From: Pseudomonas grimontii
Lineage (GTDB): Bacteria; Pseudomonadota; Gammaproteobacteria; Pseudomonadales; Pseudomonadaceae
Direction of reading: 5' to 3'
Assembly (NCBI RefSeq): GCF_007858185.1
Contig: NZ_VFES01000014.1
Span: 1-64,000 of the forward strand
Length of the DNA: 64,000 nt
A program made the position numbers and the translations under genes. Below the pieces are notes generated by a model. The model had not been told where the DNA came from. It ran no database searches and was given only the letters and a program-made list of their open reading frames with translations. Of the stretch, positions 13,856 through 46,081 are shown in pieces (positions within the stretch are counted from its first letter, which is position 1; every line of letters begins with the position of its first letter).

Positions 13856-14914
13856 ATGGAAAACAGACGAGGCAAAGGGCTCTCATTTGCCAGGCGTATT
13901 TATCAGCCACGGATCATCGGCCTGGGTGTCGGCAGCATCAGCGTCACCGGCGCCTTGTACCCACTCGCCATGCCGGGCTGGGTCTGGGCGTTGTTGCTGC
14001 TTAATGGGTTTGCCTGGGCGCATCTGGCCTACCAGTTGTCGACCCGCTCGCAGTTCCCTTACCAGGCGGAACAGCGCAACTTCCTGTATGACTCGGTATT
14101 CGGCGGGTTCTGGGCAGCCGCCGCACAGTTCACGCCGCTGACGGCCGTGACCATCCTATCGATGATGACCATGAACAACGTCGCCGCCGGCGGCAGGCGC
14201 CTGTTCCTGCGCGGCTTGCTCGCACAAGGGCTGGGGGTCGGCGTGGCGTGGGCGCTGTTCGGTATCAAGTTCAACCCCGAGGTCAGCCTGCTGCAGGTCT
14301 ACACCTGCCTGCCCATGCTGACCCTATACCCCATGGCCATCGGCATGGTTTGTTATCAACTGGCGATCAAGCTGTCGGAACATAAACGCGCCCTCAGTGC
14401 CCTGAGTCGCACCGACAGCCTCACCGGCCTGCTCAACCACGGCTCGTGGAAAGACCTGCTGCACCTCAAGTTCCACAAGTGCCAGCAGCAGCAAAGCCAC
14501 GCCACCATCGCGTTGATCGATATTGATCACTTCAAGCAGATCAACGATACCCATGGCCACATTGTCGGCGACACGGTGCTGCGGCAACTGAGCCTGGAAC
14601 TGCGGCGCAACCTGCGGGAAAACGACTTGGCCGGGCGTTACGGGGGCGATGAGTTCTGTGTGATTCTTCCGCAAATGCCTCTGGAGCAAGCGGCCAAGAT
14701 CATGGAGCAGATGCGCGAAACATTCGGCGATTACCGCCCCCCGCAAATACCGGAACTGCGCGTCAGCCTGAGCATCGGTTTGGCGGACTTCCAGCCCCGC
14801 TTCACCGACGCGGCCATGTGGCTGAACGCAGCTGACCGAGCGCTCTATGCAGCCAAGGACACCGGGCGTAATCGAGTCAATGTCAGTGACGACCGGATCG
14901 CCTGTTCCGCCTGA
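13856..14914 (+). CDS. Membrane-bound diguanylate cyclase (MASE2-GGDEF)
   Basis: A 352-residue inner-membrane enzyme that makes cyclic di-GMP from GTP. The N-terminal MASE2-like sensor (about 15-175) has several membrane segments, including ITGALYPLAMPGWVWALLLL-like and LLQVYTCLPMLTLYPMAIGM stretches. The GGDEF domain (about 180-345) has DSLTGLLNHGSW, LIDIDHFKQINDTHGH and an intact RYGGDEF active site. An RxxD inhibitory site (REND) sits five residues before it, so product inhibition is expected. This architecture is that of AdrA/DgcC-type cyclases, which promote biofilm matrix production. The start at 13856 (ATGGAAAACAGACG) follows CCAGGAATTT. Confidence 0.92.
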   Translation: MENRRGKGLSFARRIYQPRIIGLGVGSISVTGALYPLAMPGWVWALLLLNGFAWAHLAYQLSTRSQFPYQAEQRNFLYDSVFGGFWAAAAQFTPLTAVTILSMMTMNNVAAGGRRLFLRGLLAQGLGVGVAWALFGIKFNPEVSLLQVYTCLPMLTLYPMAIGMVCYQLAIKLSEHKRALSALSRTDSLTGLLNHGSWKDLLHLKFHKCQQQQSHATIALIDIDHFKQINDTHGHIVGDTVLRQLSLELRRNLRENDLAGRYGGDEFCVILPQMPLEQAAKIMEQMRETFGDYRPPQIPELRVSLSIGLADFQPRFTDAAMWLNAADRALYAAKDTGRNRVNVSDDRIACSA

Positions 14915-15065
14915 AATCGCCCCACGACACCTCGTCTGAATCTTCCGTCCAACGCCCTGGGCGATAGCATAAAGCCTCCACTGGTCGCCTACCCAAAAAT
15001 GGTCCTGCTCCTGGGGCGAACTTCTTGTCAGGCTGATCACTCTTAACCCGTTGTTCCACCCCCGC

Positions 15066-15087
15066 TGTCAGCACAAGGAGGCTGACA
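15066..15087 (+). promoter_or_regulatory. Probable RsmA/RsmE (CsrA) binding hairpin over a ribosome site
   Basis: Perfect 7-bp arms TGTCAGC and GCTGACA enclose the 8-nt loop ACAAGGAG and end directly at an ATG (15088). The loop carries ACAAGGA, which matches the CsrA/RsmA consensus ACA(R)GGA displayed in a hairpin loop, and the same bases form the Shine-Dalgarno. This is the textbook layout for Rsm-mediated translational repression. Confidence 0.65.
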
Positions 15088-15198
15088 ATGAGCACGTCAA
15101 CCGTACGGCGAATGCCTTACGGGGGCAGGCGCACATACATGGACACTCCCAGACGCATGCTTGCCCGAGCACCCGAACATGCTATTCAACGCCCATAA
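15088..15198 (+). CDS. Candidate 36-residue leader peptide before the chemoreceptor gene
   Basis: The ATG at 15088 has an excellent AAGGAGG site seven nt upstream and opens a 36-codon frame ([13 protein letters not shown]...HAIQRP) ending at TAA 15196-15198. The product is Arg-rich and has no recognised domain. The frame overlaps the start of the chemoreceptor gene (ATG 15179) by 20 nt in another frame. The receptor's own ATG has only a poor ribosome site, so translation of the short frame could be coupled to it. Confidence 0.45.
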
Positions 15199-16498
15199 AA
15201 AAACCATCAATACCCTGAAACACACCGTGGCTCACCAGGCCAGCCTGCTGGACGCAATCGAGCGCTCCATGGCGGTGATCGAATTTGATCCGCAAGGCCT
15301 CGTGCTGCGCGCCAATGACAACTTCCTCAACACGCTGGGCTACCGCGCCGAGCAGATCGAAGGCCAATCCCACCGGATGTTCTGTACGCCCGCTTTCGCC
15401 CGGAGCGCCGAGTACATGCAGCTGTGGTCCAACCTGCAAAAAGGTCAATTCCAGTCAGGTACTTTTGAACGGGTGGCCAGCAACGGTCAGTCGGTGTGGC
15501 TGGAAGCCAGCTACACCCCAGTGCGTGACGACGAGGGCCGTGTGATCAAAGTGGTGAAGTACGCCCTGGACGTCACCCCGCGCCTGCAGGCCGAAAGCGA
15601 GGCCAACGCCAAGTTGGAAGCCATCGGCCGGGCAATGGCCGTCATCGAGTTCAATCTCGACGGCACGATCATCACCGCCAACGCCAACTTCCTGCAGCGC
15701 ATGGGCTACAGCCTGGCGCAGGTTCAGGGCCAGCATCACCGCCTGTTCTGCCCCCCAGAGACTGCCGCGAGTTCAGCCTACAGTGACTTCTGGCGGCGCC
15801 TGAACCAGGGCGAACTGTTCAGCGGCCAATTCGAACGCGTGGATAAAAACGGCCGGCCCGTGTGGCTCGAAGCCAGCTACAACCCGGTGTACGACGCCAG
15901 CGGGCGCCTGTGCAAAGTGGTGAAGTTCGCCTCGGACATCACCGCGCGCGTGCAACAACATGCCGCTGACGCGCAAAGCGCCGCCCAAGCCTATCACCTG
16001 TCCCTGCATACCCAGGACATGGCGGAAAAAGGCGCCGATGTGATCCAGAAAACAGCCAGCGGCATGCGTGAAATCTCCTCGGACATCGACAGTTCCTCGC
16101 AACTGATCGCCAAGCTGGGCGAGCGTTCGCAACAGATCACCACCATCGTCAACACCATTCGCGGCATTGCCGACCAGACCAACCTGCTGGCACTCAATGC
16201 TGCTATCGAAGCGGCGCGCGCAGGTGAACAAGGCCGTGGTTTTGCCGTGGTGGCCGATGAAGTACGACAGTTGGCGGCGCGCACCAGCGGTTCCACCACG
16301 GAGATTTCCAGCATGATCGCGGTGATCCAGGCTGAAACCCGCCAAGCCATCGACAGCATGGACGCGACCCGCGACCGCGCCGCCCAGGGCGTGGAGCTGG
16401 CCAACCAGGCCGGTACGGTGATCCTGCAGATTCGCGAAGGCACCAGCGAGGCGGTGCACGCGGTGAGCGCGTTTGCCAATGAGCGTGGCGTCCACTAA
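15179..16498 (+). CDS. Soluble PAS-PAS chemoreceptor, BdlA-like
   Basis: A 439-residue methyl-accepting chemotaxis-type protein with no membrane segments. Two PAS domains (about 20-135 and 140-255) are near copies: both carry IEFD/NLDG..L.AN.NFL...GY...Q..GQ.HR.FC and QFERV...G..VWLEASY.PV. The C-terminal signalling domain holds the conserved hairpin [32 protein letters not shown]. This order is that of BdlA, which drives biofilm dispersion in P. aeruginosa, and of Aer-like sensors. The start MLFNAHKK fits the paralogue start MFNLHHK seen at 46081. A diguanylate cyclase gene lies upstream, and the leader carries an Rsm-type hairpin. Confidence 0.88.
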
Positions 16499-16582: not shown

Positions 16583-17104
16583 ATGACACCCGACAAGCCC
16601 GAATCTCCCCCCGTCGATCACCTGCGCTTTCACCGACGCCACGCCCACCTGGCGCCGACCTTTGGCAATGACACCTTTGCCCTCAAGGCCGAGGCCTTTG
16701 CGCGCTTCTTTGGTACGCCGACCTTCCTCGGTGCGCAAACCGCGATCGTGATCTTGTGGGTGGTGCTTAACGTAACCGGCATCACCCACTTCGACGTGTA
16801 CCCGTTCATCCTGCTCAACCTGGCGTTCAGCCTGCAATCAGCCTATGCCGCGCCACTGATCCTGCTGGCCCAGACGCGCCAGGCGGCCCGCGACAAAGCC
16901 CAGTCCGACGCCGATGCACAACACCGTGAAGCACTGGCCATCGCCAATTCCGAACGCCAGGCCCAGGCCGCGCAAACCACCAAACAGCTGCTGGAATTGC
17001 TGGAGCAGAACACCCGACTGACGGAAATGACCAAGCAACTGACCGAACACATCGAAACCCTGACGTGCGAAATGCATGAGCACTACGTAAGAAAACCCCA
17101 GTAA
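16583..17104 (+). CDS. DUF1003 family membrane protein
   Basis: A 173-residue protein. It has two central hydrophobic segments (about 50-70, AIVILWVVLNVTG; about 75-98, FILLNLAFSLQSAYAAPLILLAQ) and a C-terminal coiled coil (LLELLEQNTRLTEMTKQLTEHIETL). The motif YPFILLNLAFSLQSAYAAP is diagnostic of DUF1003 proteins, whose function is unknown. The gene stands alone with the start at 16583. Confidence 0.85.
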   Translation: MTPDKPESPPVDHLRFHRRHAHLAPTFGNDTFALKAEAFARFFGTPTFLGAQTAIVILWVVLNVTGITHFDVYPFILLNLAFSLQSAYAAPLILLAQTRQAARDKAQSDADAQHREALAIANSERQAQAAQTTKQLLELLEQNTRLTEMTKQLTEHIETLTCEMHEHYVRKPQ

Positions 17105-45160: not shown

Positions 45161-46081
45161 GCGCGGCCTGGTTCAGGTTGTGGGAAATTTCTTCGATGAT
45201 CTCCACGGTTTGTTGCACCACCCCGCCCCCTTGCGCGCGCAGGCGTCATTTTGTACCGAGGTGGCGTGGGCCGAATCGGCGGCGGTGCACAGGGTGGTGA
45301 CCTGGTCAGTGATGTCACTGGCGAATTTCACCACTTTGTACAGGCGCCCATTGGTATCGAAGATAGGGTTGTAGGAGGCTTCCAGAAACAGCGTCTGACC
45401 GTATTTGTTTTTGCGCTCAAAGCGGTGTGAGTGGAATTCGCCACGGCTGAGGGAAGCCCAGAACGCCTTGTAGGACGGCGATTCCACTTCGCCGCGATGG
45501 CAAAACATGCTGTGGTGCTGGCCGACGATTTCGCCCAGGGAGTACTGCACGGTCTTGAGGAAGTTTTCGTTGGCGTTAAGGATCTGGCCCTGAGGCGTGA
45601 ACTCGATCACCGCCATGGAGCGGCCGATGGCGTCAATCAGGCTCTGGTTCTCGTACTCATGGTGCACCCGCGCGGAAATATCCGACGCCACCTTGATCAC
45701 TCTGTGTACGTGGTTATCGCTGTCCAGTACCGGCATGTAGCTGGCTTCAAGCCACACTTCCTGGCCGTGCCTGTTCAACCGCATGAACGTGCCGCTCAGG
45801 GCCTCGCCCCGTGCCAGGTCGTGCCACAACTTCGCGTAGGCATCGGTGCGGGTGTAGGCCTCGTCGCAAAAAATGCGGTGATGTTTGCCGCGAATCTCCT
45901 CGGCGCTGTAGCCCATGGCTTTGCAGAAGTTGTCGTTGGCATCGAGTATCACGCCATCGGGGTCGAACTCGATCATCGCCATGGAGCGGCTGATGGCGGC
46001 GAGCTTGGCGTTGGATTCGGTGAGTGCACAGGAAAAACGCTGGATTTCAAGCAGGTCGGCTTTGTGATGAAGATTGAACAT
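45160..46081 (-). pseudogene. Second BdlA-like PAS-PAS chemoreceptor, truncated and frameshifted
   Basis: The minus-strand frame from 46081 (MFNLHHKADLLEI...) encodes two intact PAS domains (AMIEFDPDGVILDANDNFCKAMGYS; AVIEFTPQGQILNANENFLKTVQYS) like the gene at 15179. A one-base shift in the run near 45221-45235 then changes frame: the correct frame continues GVVQQTVEIIEEISHNLNQA, the first part of the signalling helix. Sequence stops there at an IS3-type remnant, so the MCP hairpin is missing. It is a broken paralogue; the PAS part may still be expressed. Confidence 0.85.

Follow-up and report, generated by a model that had tools for sequence, protein, structure and literature searches.

Rsm proteins take part in the bacterial choice between a swimming life and life in a biofilm, and the locus considered here raises the question of whether, and by what route, they might control a receptor gene of Pseudomonas grimontii through a hairpin in its leader. 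The window, that is, the whole stretch of 64,000 nucleotides that was analyzed, carries the receptor gene at positions 15179-16498 of the + strand. The 439-aa product consists of two PAS folds and an MCP signaling domain according to Pfam, and NCBIfam adds domain-level hits over the cut-off with no named equivalog; the designation of the receptor as BdlA-like in the original prediction therefore holds for the PAS-PAS-MCP domain architecture, and for that alone. As also predicted, the receptor's own ribosome site is poor: by eye, only GAG at 15167-15169 (+ strand) can be recognized, a triplet that is invariant in the 63 rows of alignment A1 described below. The domain search places the gene between a MASE2-GGDEF diguanylate cyclase (13856-14914, + strand) and a DUF1003 protein (16583-17104, + strand). 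Among 80 named loci, a diguanylate cyclase gene lies upstream on the same strand in 69 and a DUF1003 gene occupies the matching downstream place in 63, in each case within about 2.5 kb; the missing cases may reflect true absence, contig ends or flank limits. The nearest named relatives by N-terminal identity of the receptor are Pseudomonas sp. MIACH (96%) and P. marginalis PgKB35 (95%). Elsewhere in the window, a 302-aa frame on the - strand (45173-46081) matches receptor residues 16-289 with 48% identity, covering the PAS part and lacking most of the MCP domain.

The hairpin itself, H1 (15066-15087, + strand), hereinafter Rsm-type site 1, reads as originally described, with a perfect 7-bp stem of TGTCAGC (15066-15072) and GCTGACA (15081-15087) that encloses the loop ACAAGGAG (15073-15080), displays GGA at 15077-15079 and abuts an ATG at 15088. 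The best fold of 15040-15220 contains H1 (z -2.17; 5 of 200 shuffles fold equally well), and once more coding sequence is taken in, as in the best fold of 15060-15260, H1 is displaced by long-range pairs. Comparable hairpins, defined by a stem of at least 7 bp with at most one G-U pair and a GGA-containing loop of 6-9 nt, are found at 18 distinct places on the two strands of the window, H1 included, and a 6-bp stem around a GGA loop is attained in 5.3% of its 80-nt segments. As a single-sequence finding, H1 is ordinary and proves little by itself; it is significant because it is conserved across the leaders of orthologous genes. The window also contains two perfect 12-bp stems with GGA-containing loops (45068, + strand; 21479, - strand) which, judging from their length, are more likely to be terminators or other repeats than Rsm sites.

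The conservation of H1 was assessed among 220 loci collected from genomes, not all of them orthologs, which comprise 174 distinct leaders. In 160 of these, the first 130 residues of the receptor are at least 58% identical, and removal of three leaders with uncertain starts (L019, L137 and L203) left 157 distinct leaders as the basis of the conservation counts; outside the counts, L017, which falls under the 58% cut, has a GGA-loop hairpin with an 8-bp stem. Between -140 and -61, 125 of the 157 leaders have a GGA-loop hairpin whose stem reaches 6 bp or more, compared to 2.4% of shuffles, and to this extent the prediction of a candidate Rsm-type target in the receptor leader is borne out. H1 is absent or weak in the remaining 32, which include near misses with a single mismatch (L012, L053), a bulge (L126) or 10-nt loops on 6-bp stems (L085, L090, L091, L104), as well as leaders without the hairpin, such as L014, L214-L217, L219 and L220. 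Two alignments were used for closer analysis: A1 consists of 63 of the 64 thinned rows of the P. fluorescens subgroup, unselected by loop and with the protegens-type L156 excluded, whereas A2 consists of 55 of 73 thinned rows, from which the 18 most divergent were excluded, so that its figures describe the better-conserved rows. The H1 cells are paired in 99.1% of cases in A1, with two pairs showing changes on both sides, and in 91.2% in A2, with four such pairs; the outermost H1 pair is unpaired in 18 of the 55 A2 rows. The unselected evidence for the loop of site 1 is alignment A1, in which GG is invariant over the 63 rows, the next A is at least 90% conserved and the preceding letter is variable. 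A tally of 131 loops, namely the 134 GGA-selected hairpin rows less L019, L137 and L201, in which GGA is present by construction, gives A, T, C and G as the letter before GGA in 74, 38, 12 and 7 cases, respectively. AGGAG occurs in only 7 of the 131 loops, so that conservation as a ribosome site does not account for the loop.

The leader contains a second candidate Rsm-type site, unnamed in the original prediction, that is conserved as well. Site 2, ACATGGA (15137-15143, + strand), is located 36 nt before the receptor ATG, and the motif A-N-GGA is found between -65 and -26 in 149 of the 157 leaders (11.3% of shuffles), in the forms AGGGA (65), ATGGA (63), AAGGA (13) and ACGGA (8), and is missing in the other 8. 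Within the extended motif CANGGA, the letters C, A, G, G and A are invariant in the 63 rows of A1 and N varies; in A2, three of these letters are invariant and two nearly so. GGA in a hairpin loop, usually accompanied by a second GGA site, is characteristic of RsmA/CsrA-regulated leaders and is found here; both sites, with a site 1 stem of at least 6 bp, occur together in 123 of the 157 leaders. The two sites are spaced by 64 nt, at the upper limit of the distances that a single CsrA dimer can bridge. In the window fold, the GG of site 2 lies within a weak 3-bp stem, and the unpaired probability of the site is 0.31 in the longer fold (15060-15260).

Site 2 resides inside a second structured region that follows H1. 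The hairpin H2 (15101-15122, + strand; CCGTA..TACGG, with the inner GGC..GCC) is paired in 94.1% of cells in A1, and its counterpart in A2 in 88.3%, with four pairs showing double changes. In the window fold, site 2 is enclosed by hairpin H3 (15123-15166, + strand; GGGCAGGCG..TGCTTGCCC), which, as defined in A1, is paired in 87.8% of cells and includes one pair with a double change; the A1 consensus fold retains just three H3 pairs, in a shifted register. Inspection by eye also raised a pairing between the receptor GAG and the 3' arm of H3, which was then discarded. For the structure as a whole, 93.2% of the cells are paired in A1 versus 32-43% in slid controls, and 89.8% in A2 versus 18-42%. 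Pairs with double changes are no more numerous in A1 than in shuffles, 248 of 500 of which reach the observed number, and slides by -1 and -2 yield 6 and 8 double-change pairs versus 5 in the unslid alignment, the former slide also giving 31 double-change cells versus 19; the number of double-change cells and the covariation score are above those of all 500 shuffles. In A2, five measures exceed nearly all shuffles (each is reached by at most 5 of 500), a slide by -3 likewise gives 8 double-change pairs, with 37 such cells versus 41 unslid, and the free consensus fold consists of only four pairs, all of them in H1. Conservation of sites and stem through compensatory changes is accordingly found for H1, with the weaker controls just noted, and is less clear for H3.

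A covariance model built from A1 (R1) delimits how far the leader can be recognized as a whole. It finds 9 of 25 other loci at E-values of 0.0002 or less and 3 at 0.018-0.13, and misses 13, among which are the paralog leaders L224, L225 and L228, the most divergent orthologs, and L193, a row unrelated to the protegens type that has a clear hairpin. Against 38 whole genomes, R1 gives three strong hits with E-values below 1e-38 (G000, which is the genome under study, G004 and G017), each at the receptor gene, and weakly hits the leaders of two more orthologs (G019, G011); the remaining hits, at E-values of 0.0075 to 1, are taken as chance.

Upstream of the leader, the subgroup shares a promoter motif. 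GAACTT-N17-TCTTA (15018-15045, + strand) is the only match to the AlgU-type motif in the window on both strands. The published AlgU site is GAACTT-N16/17-TCCAA (PMC9141998). With the second box loosened to TCnnA in our scan, an AlgU-type arrangement, specifically GAACTT-N17-TCnnA, is present in 72 of the 73 P. fluorescens subgroup rows and in none of the 84 other rows, the single exception being L164, a protegens-type leader grouped in the subgroup by identity; the upstream alignment of the subgroup shows an invariant GAACTT along with a TC-type box. The genome encodes one sigma factor above the cut-off of the AlgU/RpoE family model. If AlgU uses this motif, the 5' end of the mRNA would lie near 15050 and H1 about 13-16 nt from it. 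Outside the subgroup, the upstream sequence differs and contains TTGTACAA and TTGTATAA elements, which form an imperfect inverted repeat, TTGTACAA..TTGTATAA, over a possible promoter that takes the place of the AlgU-type motif (for example, in L009, at about -190 to -125). The genome under study also encodes a full-length paralog of the receptor that is 60% identical (L224, C53). By eye, no such hairpin is seen near the start of this gene and its three counterparts (L225-L227), the leaders of which contain a TAAAGTC-type box, then GCCGATAG, and a GAGGG ribosome site. The combination of this box with GCCGATAG is presumably of the FliA type, and, judging from these leaders, the receptor and its paralog appear to be under different control.

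The regulators that such a leader would call for are encoded in the genome, which has three CsrA-family genes as well as RNAs of the RsmZ and RsmY families; an amrZ-type gene and one of the CsrA-family genes are about 3 kb apart (C2:205250 and C2:208037). In P. fluorescens SBW25, RsmQ and RsmE are reported to share the GGA/AnGGA motif, RsmQ binding best in a hairpin loop, and RsmQ is reported to have raised five MCPs (PMC9928087). The same source describes binding of RsmQ to an oligonucleotide with ATGGA from upstream of PFLU4726. This gene was considered as a candidate ortholog of the receptor; it is probably another gene, given that amrZ is annotated as PFLU4744 (PMC4395868) and that an amrZ-type gene lies 49-55 kb away from the receptor gene in the relatives G385, G195, G139 and G017. 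The word "chemotaxis" is absent from the main text of a study of P. putida Rsm targets (PMC7937890), and no report of this receptor leader was found in the open-licence literature searched.

Known principles account for all parts of the leader. Two conserved Rsm-type sites in which the surrounding letters are free to vary are best explained by Rsm binding, and from the observed sites, structure, conservation, promoter motif and regulator genes, we infer such binding, as well as bridging, repression as the sign of control and use of the promoter by AlgU. We lean toward the reading in which the 5' leader of the PAS-PAS-MCP gene, roughly 130 nt long, is a two-site RsmA/RsmE target that is bridged and repressed and, in the P. 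fluorescens subgroup, transcribed by AlgU. Site 1, in the GGA loop of H1, would lie near the predicted 5' end of the mRNA, and site 2 would be the A-N-GGA inside H3. Rsm proteins on both sites, perhaps with one dimer bridging them, would leave the leader poorly loaded by ribosomes, so that less receptor would be made, and the Gac-controlled Rsm RNAs, RsmY and RsmZ, would relieve the repression. In the subgroup, the receptor gene would additionally be transcribed from the AlgU-type promoter; inasmuch as RsmA lowers algU in P. fluorescens F113, Rsm action on algU and on the leader would go in the same direction, making for a coherent feed-forward arrangement. A site overlapping the receptor's ribosome site, typical of repressed targets, is not part of this leader: neither site covers the GAG, and hence direct occlusion is not the obvious mode. 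Targets of the activation or coupling types do not need such an overlap. The modes that remain are repression by a bridged leader, stabilization of the kind found in flhDC, and coupling of the kind found in iraD where the frame suits.

The last of these modes is closest to the original prediction, in which Rsm proteins block translation of a short leader frame, with the receptor translated by coupling to it, as in E. coli, where CsrA controls iraD through translational coupling to ORF27 (PMC5574718). In the window, the arrangement is as predicted: the ATG at 15088 opens a frame of 36 codons (15088-15198, + strand) that overlaps the start of the receptor gene by 20 nt, and site 1 overlaps the good ribosome site of this ATG. 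The ATG is present in 62 of the 63 A1 rows, and the conservation of ATGAGCA is similar to that of the hairpin, although it need not serve translation because AGCA is kept in two A2 rows, L082 and L187, where the start codon is gone. The fate of the frame argues against coupling as the general mechanism. Among 69 ATG leaders of the subgroup, the frame runs 1-50 nt past the receptor start in 18 and stops 0-19 nt before it in 6, as coupling would have it, whereas the other 45 end at very different places: at least 20 nt before the start in 16, more than 50 nt beyond it in 24, and fused in frame to the receptor in 5; the frame lengths range from 2 to 469 codons. Leader indels in A1 are often not multiples of three, and, over 134 hairpin rows of all clades, the codon after the hairpin is ATG in 71, TTG in 44 and neither in 19 (two of the latter, L019 and L201, being hairpins at another place), so that the hairpin is retained in clades with TTG or without a start codon. 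The hairpin thus outlasts the frame: of the two traits that the comparison of P. fluorescens-group leaders was expected to reveal, the hairpin proved to be conserved and the frame did not, an outcome that had been named beforehand as refuting the prediction. The leader peptide was rejected as a general conserved trait, and regulation of the receptor through coupling appears rather improbable overall; it could operate in the window species and its nearest relatives, which are among the 16 of the 69 ATG leaders with a frame end at +20. Only slightly easier to entertain, and still unlikely, is activation, whereby binding to two sites near the 5' end would shield the mRNA from RNase E, in the way that CsrA is reported to stabilize flhDC (PMC7652899). 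The predicted distance of H1 from the 5' end, the position of both sites off the receptor's ribosome site and the increase of five MCPs by RsmQ in SBW25 (PMC9928087) are all compatible with activation; yet the 5' end is a prediction, and the AlgU link described in P. fluorescens F113 argues for the opposite sign (PMC3282751).

Two further explanations dispense with Rsm proteins. The inverted repeat spans 22 bp and lies downstream of a promoter motif, at a distance of about 20 bp, as would fit a DNA operator for a transcription factor. The H1 stem of A1, however, tolerates G-U far more readily than A-C (35 cells to 3), as expected for RNA of the + strand, even though the asymmetry is just 39 to 24 in A2, where part of the A-C count probably stems from the outermost pair; furthermore, GG is kept off-center in the spacer and the second GGA site is outside the repeat, all of which makes an operator scarcely credible. 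It is also very doubtful that the structured leader serves another RNA-level factor (an sRNA, Hfq or the ribosome) and that GGA is retained on some other account. AGCA directly after H1 (window 15091-15094, A1 columns 43-46) is conserved, and the A1 consensus fold proposes that it pairs with UGCU across the start codon of the receptor (4 bp), which could be the business of such a factor. The two sites of the A-N-GGA form with a free N fit Rsm better, and a search of 14850-15400 against Rfam gave zero family matches at E-values up to 5.

Returning to the bridged and repressed two-site leader, we favor repression because binding of RsmA to the algU mRNA lowers algU levels in P. fluorescens F113 (PMC3282751), so that both arms of the control would agree. 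Repression as the sign is a weak choice, and the increase of five MCPs by RsmQ points the other way. Tentatively, and with less confidence than in the target itself, we entertain the possibility that an old Rsm leader persisted through a change of the promoter preceding it, which is of the AlgU type in the subgroup and of another type elsewhere; that two sites away from the ribosome site might act by neither occlusion nor a leader peptide; and that Gac/Rsm and AlgU might jointly gate, in feed-forward fashion, a receptor related to biofilm or taxis. If Rsm binds, a PAS-type receptor that resembles BdlA in architecture would be targeted directly by the motile/sessile switch in much of the P. fluorescens complex, and one subgroup would have it at the crossing of Gac/Rsm and AlgU. 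The large natural set of leaders, in which the hairpin is kept and the short frame drifts, lends itself well to telling Rsm action apart from leader-peptide coupling.

In hcnA, the Rsm site coincides with the ribosome site of the gene, whereas the hairpin site described here is about 100 nt upstream. The likeness to the hcnA-type RsmA/RsmE targets of P. fluorescens (hcnA is named in PMC3282751) consists in the GGA displayed in the loop of a leader hairpin. The iraD-ORF27 system of E. coli is similar in that, in the window, a CsrA-type site is located at the ribosome site of a short frame overlapping the next start, but differs in that coupling was shown there (PMC5574718), whereas the present frame lacks conservation and is joined by a second site, located between its start and the receptor. 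With the E. coli flhDC leader, the receptor leader shares two CsrA-type sites near the 5' end and off the ribosome site, in front of a gene that belongs to motile life; for flhDC, protection from RNase E was shown to bring about activation (PMC7652899), which for the receptor leader is one candidate mode. Finally, the Rsm-AlgU link in P. fluorescens F113 similarly connects Rsm proteins with the control of motility through AlgU (PMC3282751), with the difference that, in the present case, it is a putative AlgU target whose own leader is of the Rsm type.
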